From positions 1 through 62,697 of the IMG/VR virus record IMGVR_UViG_3300034418_005398: a DNA stretch of 62,697 bases. One strand, given 5' to 3'. The notes under the pieces are model-generated. The model had not been told where the DNA came from and searched no databases. It saw nothing but the letters and a program-made list of their open reading frames with translations. Numbering within the stretch: the first letter of the stretch is position 1; each line of letters opens with the position of its first letter. The stretch is from a virus. Shown here in pieces: positions 1 through 62,697 of the stretch. Both the position numbers and the translations under genes were made by a program.

Positions 1-17
1 CCTCTGCAACAAACGGC

Positions 18-41
18 GTGATAGTAGTTAAGTGATAGTAA
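18..41. repeat. GTGATAGTA double repeat (copy at the junction)
   Basis: GTGATAGTA occurs twice with a 14-base period and is followed by A. The same unit is found at 383-406 and at 62641-62664 (this same copy seen at the other end). Twelve-base-period variants lie at 61693-61713 and 61808-61829, and a half copy at 800-809. Each complete copy has the motif CGGCNNGCCTCT 7-12 bases to its left. Function unknown. Confidence 0.8.
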
Positions 42-71: not shown

Positions 72-278
72 TCATAGGTTCTTTTCGGCCGTCGCTTCTA
101 GCATAACTAGTTCGGGTAGCTTGTCTGACCCTAGTAGTCGCCATAGATCCGCGCGACCCCTTGCAATGCACTCCATTTCGTCGCGCATCCACCCTAGGGC
201 TTCTGTTTTGTGCAAGAAAAGGGGGGACTCGTATACGGACTCAAGTCCGGTCTGTACTGTAACGTAGAAAGTAAACAT
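72..278 (-). CDS. Small hypothetical protein (68 aa)
   Basis: I do not recognise this protein. It starts MFTFYVTVQTG and contains a Trp- and Glu-rich middle (GWMRDEMECIARGRADLW). No signal peptide or membrane segment is visible. The start is well supported by GGAGG four bases before the ATG. It stands alone between an upstream regulatory segment, which carries a GCTAACAC/GTGTTAGC inverted repeat, and its own terminator at 42-66. A short, separately controlled gene beside the putative control region is typical of early host-takeover genes, but that is inference. Confidence 0.7.
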   Translation of the reverse strand: MFTFYVTVQTGLESVYESPLFLHKTEALGWMRDEMECIARGRADLWRLLGSDKLPELVMLEATAEKNL

Positions 279-306: not shown

Positions 307-330
307 GGCTAACACCACACGTGTTAGCTG
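307..330. promoter_or_regulatory. Inverted repeat GCTAACAC / GTGTTAGC upstream of the 68-aa gene
   Basis: The arms GCTAACAC and GTGTTAGC are separated by CACAC and lie about 30 bases upstream of the start codon at 278. The arms resemble those of the GGCTAAC-NN-GTTAGCC palindromes of the right arm, but the spacing differs. It could be an operator or an mRNA leader hairpin. Confidence 0.55.
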
Positions 331-336
331 GAGTCA

Positions 337-364
337 ATACTACACAGATCGGCGCGCTCGGCAA
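337..364 (-). promoter_or_regulatory. Candidate sigma70-type promoter for the 68-aa gene
   Basis: On the minus strand TTGCCG (359-364) and TAGTAT (337-342) are 16 bases apart. The -35 hexamer lies inside the GGCTTGCCG part of the bipartite repeat. The match is moderate, so this is a candidate only. Confidence 0.35.
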
Positions 365-382
365 GCCTCTACGCGGCGGCGC

Positions 383-406
383 GTGATAGTAGTTAAGTGA
401 TAGTAA
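383..406. repeat. GTGATAGTA double repeat (second copy)
   Basis: This has the same sequence as the junction copy, GTGATAGTA twice with a 14-base period. The partner motif CGGCAAGCCTCT lies at 359-370. The unit directly follows, on the minus strand, the terminator at 406-429, as at the other copies. Confidence 0.8.
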
Positions 407-429
407 TAAAAAAGGGGGCCGAAGCCCCC
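406..429 (-). terminator. Intrinsic terminator after the 79-aa gene
   Basis: The minus-strand stem is GGGGGC/GCCCCC with a TTCG loop, followed by a T-rich tract. It lies seven bases past the stop codon of the gene at 437-676. It is nearly identical to the terminator at 42-66. Confidence 0.85.
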
Positions 430-436
430 GAGCGAG

Positions 437-676
437 TTAATCTTCTAAGCCTTCGATTTCGGCTTCGACGAAATGCTTACCCTTTACTCGACAGATGCCG
501 CGAAGCATTCGCGCCAGTTGGGAATCAGTCATGAATCCGACAGCTTCATCCTGCTTTTCTTCGCTATACCAAATTGCGTCTTGCGCGTAGCGCATTAGCT
601 TATTGCTAGCGGCGTCGTTCAAGCATTCTGCGGACTCGGTGGTTACTACGGTGGTACCAAAATTTAAAGTAATCAT
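437..676 (-). CDS. Small hypothetical protein (79 aa)
   Basis: I do not recognise this protein. It begins MITLNFGTTVVTTESAE and ends in an acidic tail (EAEIEGLED). It looks soluble, with no membrane segment. I prefer the ATG at 676, which has a GAAGCGAG stretch at Shine-Dalgarno distance, over a GTG three codons upstream. It forms a single-gene transcription unit closed by the terminator at 406-429 and reads away from the structural operon that starts at 944. The placement resembles small early genes, but function cannot be assigned. Confidence 0.65.
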   Translation of the reverse strand: MITLNFGTTVVTTESAECLNDAASNKLMRYAQDAIWYSEEKQDEAVGFMTDSQLARMLRGICRVKGKHFVEAEIEGLED

Positions 677-943
677 AACATTCACTCGCTTCTGTTAGTT
701 AGTTAGTGTCCCGCCCCGTCGGGGGAGGGGGGTATGTCCGGGTTGCCCTGAACATGTTTGTAGTAGAGCACGGGGGGTGGGTCCATGTCCACCCACGCAG
801 TGATAGTAGACGTACCCCGTATATCGCAAGGCTCATTTTTATTGACTTATAAATTTTGGGTTTATATATTTCATTTCCCAACGACCGGCGCGTAAAATTT
901 TTCCGGCCAAAATTTTGGGGTTATAGAATTTATAGGAGGCAAT
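677..943. other. Divergent intergenic control region
   Basis: No gene is seen here. The stretch separates the divergent genes starting at 676 (minus) and 944 (plus). It contains a GC-rich palindrome near 715-727 (CCCCGTCGGGG), a hairpin with arms GTGGGT and ACCCAC around 776-795, a half copy of the GTGATAGTAG repeat at 800-809, the structural-operon promoter at 842-870, and an imperfect direct repeat AAATTTTGGG at 851-871 and 910-931. Confidence 0.6.
842..870 (+). promoter_or_regulatory. Sigma70-type promoter of the plus-strand (structural) operon
   Basis: TTGACT (842-847), a 17-base spacer and TATATT (865-870) closely match the bacterial housekeeping consensus in an AT-rich context. Transcription would start near 877, giving a leader of about 67 bases before the first gene at 944. 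It is the only strong plus-strand promoter found ahead of the terminase genes, so it probably drives the packaging, lysis and tail genes with host RNA polymerase. Confidence 0.65.
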
Positions 944-17216: not shown

Positions 17217-18106
17217 TGGCTGACGCACCGGCTATAGGGCCGTGGTTGCGAGGTATAGTCAACACCGTTGACCCTCACTCGCTCACCCCCGATGCGCTGT
17301 ACGACGCGGTGGACTGCAACATTGACCGTGACGGCTCCGTAGAGTCGCGTCACGCGTTTTCTCTGCTGGACGACACCTCGGAGTACCACTCTATCTTTGC
17401 GTTCGGTAGCGACGTTTATGCGGGCCGAGGCGCGCAGGTTGGTAAGCTATCTCCTAACGGGTTTACAGTAACGGCGAACACCAATGGTGACAAACTGGCG
17501 TGGACCGTAGTTACAGATAGGCCGGTGTGTACAGACGGCGAAACCATTATCGCTGCGGACGGCGGGGATAACTCGTTTGTAGTAAACCAGCGCCCCGGTA
17601 GGGAGTTCCACGACCAGCAATACGCCTACACACAGCTTGAAGGGGGGCGCGATCTAGCCTACTGGCGAGGCAGGCTACTTGTTTTGCGGTCTCACACCCT
17701 TCGTTGGTCAGAGCCGCTGGAGTACGGCGCGCACAGCGCTACCCACAACTATTTACGTTTGCCAGAGCCAGCGACGTGGCTCGCCGCATTAGATGGCGGC
17801 GTTTTTGTTGGCGGCGCTAAAAATACGTATTTTTTCGCAGGAACAGCCCCAGAAAACTGGACGATGCGTGTTGTAGGCAAACAGTCGGCCCCCTATGGTA
17901 GAGTAGTGACTGGCACGCAGAATATGCCACCAGAATTGGTGGGTACAGCTGAAGAAGTAGCGGTATGGTTTACTGATGTAGGTTTTGCTGTTGGTAAACC
18001 AGATGGTAGTGTATCATACCCACAGGCTAGTAATATCGAAGGTCTACCGTTACTACCCAGAAACTTGGTCGTACAGGGCGACCGCATCTATGCTTTTGCG
18101 CGATAG
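17216..18106 (+). CDS. Tail protein, possible beta-propeller hub (296 aa)
   Basis: The protein starts ADAPAIGPWLRGIVNTVD and continues with DCNIDRDGSVESR, then regularly spaced beta blades (FGSDVYAGRGAQVGKL, YWRGRLLVLRSHTLRWSEP, FVGGAKNTYFFAG). Phage proteins of this type, such as the P22 gp10-like tail hub, form propellers that close the tail after packaging. The match is architectural only. It lies directly after the giant fibre gene with no gap. Confidence 0.55.
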   Translation: MADAPAIGPWLRGIVNTVDPHSLTPDALYDAVDCNIDRDGSVESRHAFSLLDDTSEYHSIFAFGSDVYAGRGAQVGKLSPNGFTVTANTNGDKLAWTVVTDRPVCTDGETIIAADGGDNSFVVNQRPGREFHDQQYAYTQLEGGRDLAYWRGRLLVLRSHTLRWSEPLEYGAHSATHNYLRLPEPATWLAALDGGVFVGGAKNTYFFAGTAPENWTMRVVGKQSAPYGRVVTGTQNMPPELVGTAEEVAVWFTDVGFAVGKPDGSVSYPQASNIEGLPLLPRNLVVQGDRIYAFAR

Positions 18107-56952: not shown

Positions 56953-58182
56953 TTAGTTAAATACAACGTCAGTAATGTCACCGAAGGGCACAGTAGCGTG
57001 GCTGTTGCTATGCACCGCCCAGATGACGGGGTACTCGGGAGCGTGTAGCTCGTCGAGGTCGGGTGTGTACAGGTCAGTAAAGTACACAAGTGCGGCGATG
57101 CGCTCGTCAGCAAGCTCATCGTCAATGTGGTCGAACACGGGCTTGACGCGGGTGCCACCGCCGCCACGCGGGTGCAACTCAACGGTCTCGCCGCGCTCAA
57201 ACCGTTCAACATGCTGTACATGCGTGTCGCAGTACACAACGATAACGCCGTCAGGATTGCAGTCCTCGACAATGGCGTTGATCTCTGCGGCAGTCTGTCT
57301 ACACAACTCGTCCGACATAGAGCCGGAAGTGTCGAAGCCGACAACAAGCCAGCCTAAGCCCTCGCTATGCAGGGACGGAAGCATGAGATTGTATGACGCG
57401 TACTTGCGCTCGGGTCGCGCGTAGCTGTAGTCATCGTGCGCTATCGAAGTCATAACGGGTCGGAGCACATCATCCCACTGAACAACGGGGTCAAGCTCGC
57501 CCTCAAGCAGACGGTCGATAAGCGCAGACTGGTCGCCAGCGGCTTTGGCCATACGTGCGGCAGTCAGAATGGTAGCCTTAACGTCTAACTCGTCAGCCGC
57601 ATTGGGTGCGGGAGCCATATCGCCGTGGCCGTCCCAACCGCCGCCGCCGGTCTCGGCGCTAGGCATAGAGCCGCCGGACGGGTCAGTAGAGCCGGAGTCA
57701 CCGTCACCGTCACCGTCACCGTCACCGTCACCGTCACCGTCACCGTCATCTTCATCGCATAGCTTGCGATACACGGACTCGGCATCGTGGGAGTCGTCAA
57801 CCCAGTCGAGCAACACGCCGCCAGCTGGCATAGTGTAGCCCTTTACTCGTAACATGTAATTGATAACAGCGTCACAAGCGATGTTCCACAGCCGAGGGTT
57901 ACGTTCGTCAAGCCGGAACATGTGCATAAACACGGCGTGCAAAGCCTCGTGCAAGCACACGAACATAAGCTCGTCATCGGTAAGCGGCTCACAGAAGCTG
58001 GCACCGAAGTACAGATTCTTGCCGTCAGTTGACGCAGTACCGTCTACACCGTACTTGCGGGTCATTGCTGTATACACGCTAGCGATAAACGGCTCGCGCA
58101 GGGTCATACGTGCGGACAGCATGTCAACGCGCGATTCTAGCGCGTCAAGGTCATAGCTGGTCTGCGGGGGTAGGATCGTCAT
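56953..58182 (-). CDS. DUF2201-type metallopeptidase with VWA-like domain (409 aa)
   Basis: The N-terminal domain has HEALH (78-82) and H87, a HExxHxxxxH zinc site, followed by WNIACDAVINYML, matching the DUF2201 N-terminal metallopeptidase domain. A low-complexity Gly-Asp linker, from a hexanucleotide repeat, separates it from a VWA-like domain with DTSGSMSDE (MIDAS, about 283). These pairs work with MoxR-type AAA+ ATPases, which are encoded two genes upstream. ATG 58182 has GGAGG five bases upstream. It may be a chaperone or metal-insertase-like partner; the substrate is unknown. Confidence 0.88.
   Translation of the reverse strand: MTILPPQTSYDLDALESRVDMLSARMTLREPFIASVYTAMTRKYGVDGTASTDGKNLYFGASFCEPLTDDELMFVCLHEALHAVFMHMFRLDERNPRLWNIACDAVINYMLRVKGYTMPAGGVLLDWVDDSHDAESVYRKLCDEDDGDGDGDGDGDGDGDGDSGSTDPSGGSMPSAETGGGGWDGHGDMAPAPNAADELDVKATILTAARMAKAAGDQSALIDRLLEGELDPVVQWDDVLRPVMTSIAHDDYSYARPERKYASYNLMLPSLHSEGLGWLVVGFDTSGSMSDELCRQTAAEINAIVEDCNPDGVIVVYCDTHVQHVERFERGETVELHPRGGGGTRVKPVFDHIDDELADERIAALVYFTDLYTPDLDELHAPEYPVIWAVHSNSHATVPFGDITDVVFN
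57697..57744. repeat. Eight tandem GTCACC hexamers ((Gly-Asp)8 linker)
   Basis: Eight perfect GTCACC units on the plus strand, then GTCATC, encode a Gly-Asp linker in the VWA gene. The array is prone to slippage in units of two residues, which would change linker length without a frameshift. Confidence 0.95.
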
Positions 58183-61119: not shown

Positions 61120-61135
61120 GGCTAACGCGTTAGCC
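61120..61135. promoter_or_regulatory. Perfect palindrome GGCTAACGCGTTAGCC in the operon leader
   Basis: A perfect 16-base palindrome lies between the promoter at 61193-61220 and the first gene of the minus operon, a good place for an operator. Identical sequences occur at 56557-56572 and 59248-59263 inside genes, and variants at 58292, 60049, 61637 and 62582. Confidence 0.65.
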
Positions 61136-61192
61136 GGTTAATGAAACGCGGCAGATGCCGCCGTGGTGAGTATATACCTCCCCACAGTTTCC

Positions 61193-61220
61193 AGTATACA
61201 GAGGCTGTATGCTATGTCAA
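61193..61220 (-). promoter_or_regulatory. Near-consensus sigma70 promoter of the replication operon
   Basis: On the minus strand TTGACA (61215-61220) and TATACT (61193-61198) are 16 bases apart. It is the best promoter in the genome and points at the long replication operon. The transcript leader of about 95 bases includes the palindrome at 61120-61135. A host sigma70-type RNA polymerase would use it, so these are probably early genes. Confidence 0.75.
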
Positions 61221-61321
61221 CCCTGAACCTGTTAGGAGTAAGGATTGGGGGCGCGGATGCGGTTACAACTAGTACAACTAGTGGGGTCGGCGGTAAGTGC
61301 TTGATTTGCTTGGTATTCCCA

Positions 61322-61450
61322 ACTAGTTAGTTAAGTTAACTAAAAGTCGAGGAAAAAATGTGGGGGGTCGAAAAATGAAAAGGCTGTGCGCATAAAAAAA
61401 TTGGGGCGAGAAATAATTTGCTTTAGTTTTAGTTAACTTAACTAACTAGT
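61322..61450. repeat. Perfect 24-bp inverted repeat flanking 81 bp
   Basis: The arms at 61322-61345 and 61427-61450 are exact reverse complements. They start with ACTAGTTAGTTAAG and contain the palindrome GTTAAC. The interior is AT-rich and has runs of G and A. It could form a cruciform or long hairpin, as in origins. A gene-expression role is also possible. Confidence 0.85.
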
Positions 61451-61585
61451 ACAACTACTCTTTTTTATTTGGCTTTCTGCCAACCATCTCCGCGATAGTG
61501 CCTACTAACTTTTTTCCGAAATTCTAGTTGTACTAGTTGTTGGCCTATTTATAACTCGTTCGTTGCAAGAAAATCGCCAGTAGTC

Positions 61586-61634
61586 GCTACAACTAGTTAC
61601 AGCAACTAGTAGCTACAACTAGTTACAGCAACTA
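61586..61634. repeat. Two direct 23-bp repeats with 26-base period
   Basis: Identical units at 61586-61608 and 61612-61634 start GCTACAACTAGTTAC and are separated by three bases. Each includes the ACTAGT palindrome. Close spacing suggests binding by a dimer or iteron-type protein. Confidence 0.85.
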
Positions 61635-61636
61635 CT

Positions 61637-61652
61637 GGCTAACGTGTTAGCC
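61637..61652. promoter_or_regulatory. Palindrome GGCTAACGTGTTAGCC next to the direct repeats
   Basis: The arms GGCTAAC and GTTAGCC with spacer GT follow directly after the second direct repeat. A partial copy (TCTAACGCATTAGC) lies right after it at 61658-61671. Confidence 0.55.
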
Positions 61653-61672
61653 GACTGTCTAACGCATTAGCT

Positions 61673-61713
61673 CGGCGCGCCTCTCGACCGGCTGATAGTA
61701 GTAGTGATAGTAA
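61673..61713. repeat. Bipartite repeat CGGCGCGCCTCT + TGATAGTA double repeat (copy)
   Basis: CGGCGCGCCTCT at 61673-61684 is followed by TGATAGTA twice with a 12-base period (61693-61713). An extra CGGCAAGCCTCT follows at 61717-61728. This is one of four complete bipartite units in the genome. Confidence 0.75.
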
Positions 61714-61788
61714 AACCGGCAAGCCTCTAGCCACATCGCGCGCGCAGTCGCAAACTGCAAAAAGCTAATGCATTATGCGAAACTCTAC

Positions 61789-61829
61789 CGGCGCGCCTCT
61801 CCACCGTGTGATAGTAGTAGTGATAGTAA
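61789..61829. repeat. Bipartite repeat CGGCGCGCCTCT + GTGATAGTA double repeat (copy)
   Basis: CGGCGCGCCTCT (61789-61800) and the double GTGATAGTA repeat (61808-61829) lie beside the terminator at 61833-61860. The arrangement, terminator then repeat, is the same as at 383-429 and 18-66. Confidence 0.75.
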
Positions 61830-61832
61830 TTT

Positions 61833-61860
61833 TGAAAAAAAAGGCGCCTTTCGGCGCCTT
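61833..61860 (-). terminator. Intrinsic terminator after the 223-aa gene
   Basis: On the minus strand AAGGCGCC, a GAAA loop and GGCGCCTT are followed by a T-run. It ends the single-gene unit at 61875-62546 and separates it from the gene-free control region. Confidence 0.9.
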
Positions 61861-61874
61861 GGGTTGGGGTTGGT

Positions 61875-62546
61875 TTAGTGAGCGCGGACAGTCTTGACAC
61901 TACCCTTTTTGGTTTGGGTTGCGCCATCGCCTACCGCAATGGTAGCGCCGGCCTCATTCGGCGCTAGGTGGAACCCCAGTTCAGTTAGCACGGCCTCGAA
62001 CAATCGGCGCTCGGTCGCGTGCGCTAGCCAGTATTTGACTGCGGCCTTGATGTCGCCATCCGCCTTTGTCTTGGGCGCGGGAGTCGCGGCACGTGGCGCG
62101 CGGGTTTGCACATCCGGCGCCTTTTTGCCGGCCCACTGCGCCTTGATTTCCTGCGCGGCCTTGCTCAGCATGTTGACCGGAATCGTGTCGAGCGCGACAT
62201 TCGCGGGAGTGACGACCGAATCGGCCTTGCTGGTAGCACGTTTGACAGTGACGGGTAGATCGCCAGCCATAGCCAGAATGAGGAACCGGCCTAGCTTTTC
62301 CCAAGTGTTCTTTTTGAACACCACACCATCCGCGACACAAATCGCCTTCGCGCGTTTCATCAACTGCGGATGCGCGTCAGCCGGCGCAATGGATTGATCG
62401 CGCTCCTCTGCGATAATCCGCGCGGCCTCTACATACTCCACGCGCGCCTTATCATCTGCCGACTCCGCACGGCGCAACGCTTGCGTGACGGGGTTCATAT
62501 CCTTCACTGAGGTTTTCTTGTTTACTGCTTTAGCAATAGCTTTCAT
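61875..62546 (-). CDS. Hypothetical early protein (223 aa), possible DNA-binding
   Basis: The N-terminus is basic and helical (MKAIAKAVNKKTSVKDMNP, VTQALRRAESADDKARVEY). A linker rich in Ala, Pro and Lys (RAPRAATPAPKTKADGDI) leads to a C-terminal domain (AAVKYWLAHATERRLFEAVL) ending in a basic tail. I do not recognise it. ATG 62546 has AAAGG upstream. It is a monocistronic unit between the junction terminator and its own terminator, next to the repeat cluster. A regulator or repeat-binding protein is an inference from position and charge only. Confidence 0.6.
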   Translation of the reverse strand: MKAIAKAVNKKTSVKDMNPVTQALRRAESADDKARVEYVEAARIIAEERDQSIAPADAHPQLMKRAKAICVADGVVFKKNTWEKLGRFLILAMAGDLPVTVKRATSKADSVVTPANVALDTIPVNMLSKAAQEIKAQWAGKKAPDVQTRAPRAATPAPKTKADGDIKAAVKYWLAHATERRLFEAVLTELGFHLAPNEAGATIAVGDGATQTKKGSVKTVRAH

Positions 62547-62580
62547 ATCATTCACCTTTTAGGTTATGGGTTAGTTATGT

Positions 62581-62598
62581 GCCTAACTTGTTAGACAC
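62581..62598. promoter_or_regulatory. Palindrome CTAACTTGTTAG upstream of the 223-aa gene
   Basis: CTAAC-TT-GTTAG matches the core of the recurring palindrome. It lies about 36-53 bases upstream of the ATG at 62546, downstream of a moderate promoter candidate. It is in the position of an operator, comparable to 307-330 and 61120-61135. Confidence 0.5.
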
Positions 62599-62604
62599 AG
62601 TCCG

Positions 62605-62632
62605 ACTCTAGCACACCGGCGAGCCTCTGCAA
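62605..62632 (-). promoter_or_regulatory. Candidate promoter for the 223-aa gene
   Basis: On the minus strand TTGCAG (62627-62632) and TAGAGT (62605-62610) are 16 bases apart. This moderate sigma70-type match starts just after the bipartite repeat. It is a candidate only. Confidence 0.35.
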
Positions 62633-62664
62633 CAAACGGCGTGATAGTAGTTAAGTGATAGTAA
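62617..62664. repeat. Bipartite repeat at the right end (CGGCGAGCCTCT + GTGATAGTA pair)
   Basis: CGGCGAGCCTCT (62617-62628) followed by the double GTGATAGTA repeat (62641-62664). The second half is the junction copy also seen at 18-41. It shows that the bipartite unit is intact across the circular join. Confidence 0.8.
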
Positions 62665-62697
62665 GAAAAAAAAGGGGGGCCGAAGCCCCGTGCGTCA
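62624..62697. repeat. Terminal direct repeat, right copy
   Basis: Identical to bases 1-74; see the left copy. The sequence from 62624 onward should be ignored when counting unique genome length. Confidence 0.9.

Follow-up and report, generated by a model that had tools for sequence, protein, structure and literature searches.

Background

Class I activator sites of sigma70 promoters (CRP-type geometry) lie upstream of the -35 box, at distances about one helical turn apart. Iteron-type replication origins are made of direct repeats with a Rep-type initiator gene adjacent to them.

Cluster K mycobacteriophages carry SAS and ESAS repeats, of which SAS reach into the ribosome-binding site and lie 3-7 bp from the start codon (PMC3203893). 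Cluster O mycobacteriophages carry 17-bp palindromes, and recombination between two repeats is reported to remove a segment (PMC4351075). The stoperators of Cluster A are dispersed repressor sites (PMC6550527, PMC9283540).

The locus described here belongs to an uncultivated phage recorded in IMG/VR. The window (the whole stretch of 62,697 nucleotides that was analysed) is a circular phage record in which bases 1-74 are repeated at 62624-62697, and this 74-bp terminal overlap leaves a unique genome of 62,623 bp. Its replication half is read leftward, on the minus strand.

Results and discussion

Architecture of the repeat

When read on the minus strand, the repeat has the form TACTATCAC-N3/5-TACTATCA(C)-N7/12-AGAGGCnnGCCG. 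Four complete copies (A to D) and two half copies were found, all of them on the minus strand, which is the direction of the neighbouring genes (Table 1). The original prediction had placed all six correctly, with the motif written as it appears on the plus strand; the repeat is present and is to be read on the other strand. The two units are 12 bp apart in copies C and D and 14 bp apart in A and B, and the second unit of copy D lacks the final C.

TGATAGTA occurs 15 times in the window against 1.2 expected, a count that includes bases 19 and 33, which through the terminal overlap are the same copy as 62642 and 62656. AGAGGCnnGCC occurs exactly five times, always within the repeat family and always on the minus strand. 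Neither the unit pair nor its combination with AGAGGCnnGCC appeared in any of 300 shuffles, compared with four real copies in the genome (the raw pair count is five, with the terminal duplicate counted in).

Copies A, B and C begin 2-6 bases past the T-tract of strong leftward terminators, in agreement with the proposal that three of the four copies abut an intrinsic terminator. These are the three strongest leftward terminators of the replication half.

Table 1 Features of the repeat locus, in window coordinates
Feature	Position	Strand	Remarks
Copy A	359..406	-	TACTATCAC-N5-TACTATCAC-N12-AGAGGCTTGCCG
Copy B	62617..62664	-	right part repeated at window 1-41 via the 74-bp end overlap
Copy C	61789..61829	-	units 12 bp apart
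Copy D	61673..61713	-	units 12 bp apart; no terminator directly before; adjoins ori-like region
Half copy	61717..61728	-	AGAGGCTTGCCG
Single TACTATCAC unit	800..808	-	gap between minus-strand small gene and plus-strand late genes
Intrinsic terminator before copy A	414..429	-	
Intrinsic terminator before copy B	62676..62689	-	
Intrinsic terminator before copy C	61841..61860	-	
223-aa gene between B and C/D	61878..62546	-	candidate binder; family element-flanked in relatives
68-aa small-gene cassette between A and B	72..278	-	missing from L100, junction in repeat
Small gene (ORF 437-685) upstream of copy A	437..676	-	
Operator-like inverted repeat, leader A	308..328	-	GCTAACAC-N5-GTGTTAGC
Operator-like palindrome, leader B	62583..62594	-	CTAACAAGTTAG
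Sigma70-like promoter after copy A	337..364	-	predicted; TTGCCG-16-TAGTAT, weak
Sigma70-like promoter after copy B	62605..62632	-	predicted; TTGCAG-16-TAGAGT (TATAGT in L100), weak
Main early operon promoter	61193..61220	-	predicted; near-consensus sigma70, TTGACA-16-TATACT
Ori-like noncoding stretch	61134..61672	.	ACTAGTTGTA-type repeats; between D and early promoter 61220-61193
CTAACnnGTTAG palindromes	56559, 58294, 59250, 60051, 61122, 61639, 62583, 32528		

Constraint and conservation in relatives

The closest relative, UViG_3300028829_003355 (L100/L109), is about 97 % identical in DNA to the window. Between the two, 0 of 101 motif bases are changed, compared with 15 of 162 in adjacent noncoding DNA (Fisher p 6.5e-4). 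In copy D, four of the eight spacer bases are changed and the motif is intact. The element is thus real, conserved and under constraint. The single unit at 800-808 is found at the same place in L100, L013 and L293.

The original prediction had looked to related phages for a test of the repeat, and the outcome favours the element, which is kept in them. L297 was found by a terminase search (terminase 72 % identical) and carries the element at the corresponding places: a single TACTATCAT where the window has its 800-808 unit, and two unit pairs that flank a 283-aa gene, each after a terminator, with the units 12 bp apart on the upstream side and 9 bp apart on the downstream side. The AGAGGCnnGCCG half is limited to the window's species group and is missing at the L297 pairs. 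Of the bipartite motif first proposed, the wider relatives keep the TACTATCA pair without the CGGC..GCCTCT half, which makes the TACTATCA direct repeat the conserved core.

A scan of IMG/VR for a T-tract followed by a unit pair gave 67 stretches, several of them chance or coding matches and a good number consisting of a GC-rich hairpin, T-tract and pair. Six loci match proteins of the window phage with terminase identities of 51-57 % (L039, L047, L393, L406, L407 and L430), and three match through early genes at 24-45 % (L394, L408 and L424; the stretches fetched for L394 and L408 hold no gene of the 223-aa family). L419 looks rearranged and was left out. Altogether, 12 more distant loci, with terminase identity down to about 51 %, carry a homologue of the 223-aa gene with the repeat behind its terminator, upstream of the gene, or both. 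In the 13 loci with a gene of this family, 84 units lie on the same strand as the gene and 2 on the opposite strand, with 1.3 expected. The palindromes, the ori-like repeats and the 223-aa protein itself (about 20 % identity) have diverged among these relatives.

A pair pattern with the C fixed gave mostly chance-like matches in IMG/VR at first, and AGAGGCnnGCC stood beside the pair only in two close relatives; seven other matches were later recognised as carriers of a 223-aa-family gene. In a check with less bias, loci chosen by terminase at 61-65 % identity (up to 52, many with short upstream coverage) showed neither a unit pair nor a family gene. L296 and L297, also chosen by terminase, have both. 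Direct repeats near the terminase of the 61-65 % relatives were, where read, coding repeats or ori-type AATATTC repeats. No TACTATCA pairs were found in relatives of the polymerase (about 43 % identity). In bacterial and archaeal genomes the pair pattern gave 67 stretches, none with a T-run before it together with GGCnnGCC or GAGGC behind. A DNA search of the region in isolated phages gave no match, and a literature search for the sequence words gave, among the papers listed, incidental matches only. L112, another relative, contains direct TGTCACAG pairs 12 bp apart near the end of its replication operon (17755-17996), which were judged to be probably unrelated to the element.

In L382, L392, L399, L417 and L439, a terminator and TACTATCA pairs lie behind other lysine/alanine-rich genes. 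Their proteins are not recognised by the profile of the 223-aa family, and the stretches fetched have no match to the window's proteins, which suggests that the element is distributed more widely than the window's relatives.

The 223-aa protein family

Members of this family have 192-283 aa, about 20 % identity and a conserved N..K..F.DAL.L core. Homologues include those of L039, L047, L393, L407, L424, L430 and L297. A search with the family profile added seven loci (L007, L012, L037, L045, L057, L063 and L085), drawn from the matches of the first pair-pattern scan, so that the element, not the gene, decided membership of this set. The family adjoins the element in about 13 distinct loci. In the loci of the relatives, a terminator-like hairpin follows the stop codon of the family gene, with TACTATCA units 38-70 nt on; the single exception is the first of two family genes in L393, which has an upstream unit only. 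The units behind the gene often form two pairs about 25 bp apart, in arrays of up to four units, and further units are found roughly 60-250 bases upstream of family genes.

Comparison with Pfam and PHROG gave no clear assignment and no recognisable Rep domain, and no Pfam, PHROG or PDB match names a function. Phage records yielded no homologue of the family, and plasmid records none of the L047 member. A structure model from two sequences (pLDDT 37) was of no use; with ten sequences pLDDT rose to 69, and the model had no PDB match and one match to an uncharacterised viral model. The element stands next to homologues of the gene in these loci, which makes the 223-aa protein a plausible candidate for the protein that binds it. 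What is awkward for this candidate is that identity within the family drops to about 20 % with no change in TACTATCA.

Spacing to predicted promoters

The promoters, and with them the start sites, are predictions made with a self-entered E. coli-like matrix. The usual order upstream of a family gene in the relatives is one or more units, a palindrome (AATCCCrTGGGATT), a sigma70 promoter and the start codon; in L407, for example, a unit pair and palindrome are followed by TTGACA-16-TATAAT. The window's own promoters after A and B are weak (scores 9.0 and 8.3). No phage RNA polymerase motifs were seen.

The distance from the last unit to the predicted -35 box is 17-18, 27-28, 37-40 or 48-50 bp, in steps of about one helical turn. 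In front of family genes it is 37-40 bp in seven loci (TGGACA, TTGACA or TAGACA), 48 bp in L430 and 50 bp in L407. For other genes it is 28 bp (L012/L037, L407) or 49 bp (L430), and in the window 27 bp (A) and 17 bp (B). When close relatives are collapsed, 11 values remain (17, 18, 27, 28, 28, 38, ~38, 48, 49, 50 and 70 bp), with a period of 10.5, R of 0.94 and a Rayleigh p of about 5e-5 (0.005 for the six best-scoring) in a test that is post hoc, on values that are partly non-independent (related loci) and come in some cases from weak promoters. Counting from the -10 box agrees with this phasing. Strong promoters after the arrays of the unrelated-looking L382 (66 bp) and L392 (94 bp) are off phase, and C-type arrays have no clear promoter close behind them. 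Distances in one phase would be expected of a protein that acts on the polymerase from a single side of the helix.

A putative activator site of insulated transcription units

The computed comparisons establish the presence, orientation, position and constraint of the element, its synteny in diverged phages and its spacing to predicted promoters. Of the three readings in the original prediction (origin iteron, transcription-control site and RNA element), orientation, position relative to terminators and genes, promoter spacing and constraint make the second the best. We favour, at somewhat better than even odds, a regulatory site acting at the DNA level, namely a phased activator site of insulated transcription units. 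What we infer is that a protein binds there, which protein it is, and that it activates and does not repress.

A sequence-specific protein would bind the TACTATCA direct repeats (one to four units, oriented as the following gene). The sigma70-type promoter on which it acts would lie downstream at an integral number of helical turns, and in the simplest case the protein would be an activator in contact with RNA polymerase. As most sites come directly after the intrinsic terminator that ends the previous gene, each small gene or operon of the region would be an insulated transcription unit, composed of terminator, TACTATCA sites, promoter with palindromic operator, and gene. The binder may be a member of the 223-aa family, a host factor or another phage protein. 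Between units the spacing ranges from 9 to 15 bp, more variation than a rigid dimer site usually shows. Copies C and D, the arrays behind the 223-aa gene, adjoin the probable origin and may also serve replication.

The origin-like stretch

Between positions 61134 and 61672 the divergence from L100 is 2.2 % (coding 7-9 %), and AT content is 57 % against 47 % for the genome, reaching 65 % at 61400-61560. At the corresponding place, L297 has ACTAGTGATT repeats. DnaA boxes (TTWTNCACA, up to one mismatch) are not enriched (79 vs 84.7 expected), and TTTTTCAAA at 61831-61839, the one match that reaches the C region, is a match to the T-tract.

Two readings give the element a part in replication. The first, possible but rather doubtful, is that the 223-aa family is a new DNA-binding family that would start replication at the adjacent origin and also activate, through helically phased TACTATCA sites, the early promoters insulated by terminators; the DNA word would then, just as doubtfully, have stayed constant while the protein and its partner palindromes diverged. 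The second, which we consider unlikely to a slightly greater degree, takes the units as origin iterons, that is, initiator sites (perhaps for the 223-aa protein) with the main array behind that gene at the origin and autoregulatory extra copies, an arrangement known from iteron plasmids. Copies C and D do adjoin a conserved, AT-richer, repeat-rich noncoding stretch, and in relatives the largest arrays, of four units, lie behind the family gene, with further copies upstream of it. The presence of larger arrays beside the ori-like stretch in relatives keeps the iteron reading alive for C and D. However, units also occur singly before other genes, their spacing is not uniform (9, 10, 12 and 14 bp), the ori-like stretch is filled by a separate repeat family (ACTAGTTGTA here, ACTAGTGATT in L297), and the 223-aa family lacks a recognisable Rep domain. 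The origin proposal for the repeat is a less likely reading that concerns C and D, and 61134-61672 is a better origin candidate than these copies.

Other explanations

The similarity of TACTAT to a -10 box, pointed out in the original prediction, matches the consensus at four of six positions. If the units were -10 boxes, their promoters would restart transcription just past each terminator, and the T-tract would act as a poor -35 box. The T-tract lies 16-18 bp from the second unit in A, B, C and both L297 pairs, though the components vary, and scored matches of partly compatible geometry were obtained for C (TTTTCA-16-TACTAT), D (TTGCCG-16-TACTAT) and L297 (TTTACC-17-TATCAT). Nevertheless, this distance is less constant in other loci, conservation spans 8-9 bases, more than a -10 box, and the relatives have separate near-consensus promoters 40-80 bp downstream of the element. 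A -10 box is possible on its match, and we hold it to be improbable.

At L013:4519-4560, a small gene starts about 17 bases past an intrinsic terminator, which leaves no room for a promoter and implies some read-through (or antitermination).

A recombination boundary, with repeats that mainly serve the exchange of small-gene cassettes, is very improbable: what is missing from L100 is precisely the 68-aa cassette between A and B, its sequence being joined inside the common terminator/repeat, and L013 carries other small genes in its place, but selection for homology would not let spacers diverge and spare the motif parts, orientation and promoter spacing would be left without explanation, and a by-product of repetition suffices. 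We give equally little credence to an RNA element (an antiterminator loading site or leader structure), for which speak the position of each copy upstream of the next terminator, the L013 gene just mentioned and a flexible spacing that suits single-stranded recognition, and against which speak ordinary leader folding (z -0.5, -1.15 and +0.43), the lack of an Rfam family match and the position of the units upstream of predicted start sites in relatives, hence outside the transcript; the corresponding part of the original prediction is not borne out.

Dispersed palindromes in the early region

The palindrome CTAACnnGTTAG has eight exact occurrences against 0.1 expected. Seven fall in the early region (Table 1), where the copies lie inside genes and in leaders, about 0.5-1.7 kb apart. 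In the same region, the relatives have their own dispersed palindromes of changed sequence (CTAACAATGTTAG, CTAACAAATGTTAG, GTTAGGGAATTCCCTAAC and TAATCCCATGGGATTA), and Rhizobium phage RHph_TM3_14A has 20 copies of TTACC-N6-GGTAA. The palindromes look like a fast-evolving multi-site operator system. Also in this genome, the VWA-domain protein of a MoxR/VWA pair contains a (DG)n run, an acidic low-complexity stretch (57700-57750, minus strand).

Significance and comparison with known systems

A terminator followed by the TACTATCA direct repeat is a signature of control regions in uncultivated phages without a close isolate, and it points to a conserved neighbouring gene family, that of the 223-aa protein, of no assigned function. 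If the activator reading is true, early gene control can be tested by a single protein-DNA binding experiment. The word is constant next to fast-changing neighbours, which raises the question of which conserved factor reads TACTATCA.

The element resembles class I activator sites in lying upstream of predicted -35 boxes, in its helical phasing (found post hoc) and in its constraint at the DNA level. Unlike these sites, it is made of direct rather than inverted units, with variable spacing, behind terminators. It is similar to iteron origins in its neighbours, a conserved small gene and an AT-richer, repeat-rich stretch, and in having copies upstream of the gene; in contrast to them, its arrays are short (two to four units) and irregular, copies are found at other promoters, and no initiator domain is recognisable.

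Like SAS and ESAS (PMC3203893), it consists of short asymmetric repeats in one orientation, confined to the non-structural half and tied to gene starts. Unlike SAS, the last TACTATCA unit precedes the start codon by 72-258 nt, and the units follow terminators and stand in front of predicted promoters. With the Cluster O palindromes and the stoperators, the locus shares dispersed early-region repeats and, with Cluster O, the loss of a segment between two repeats (here A and B). Unlike the TACTATCA element, the Cluster O repeats are palindromic and stoperators are dispersed repressor sites, and both are closer to the CTAACnnGTTAG family of this phage than to the TACTATCA element.
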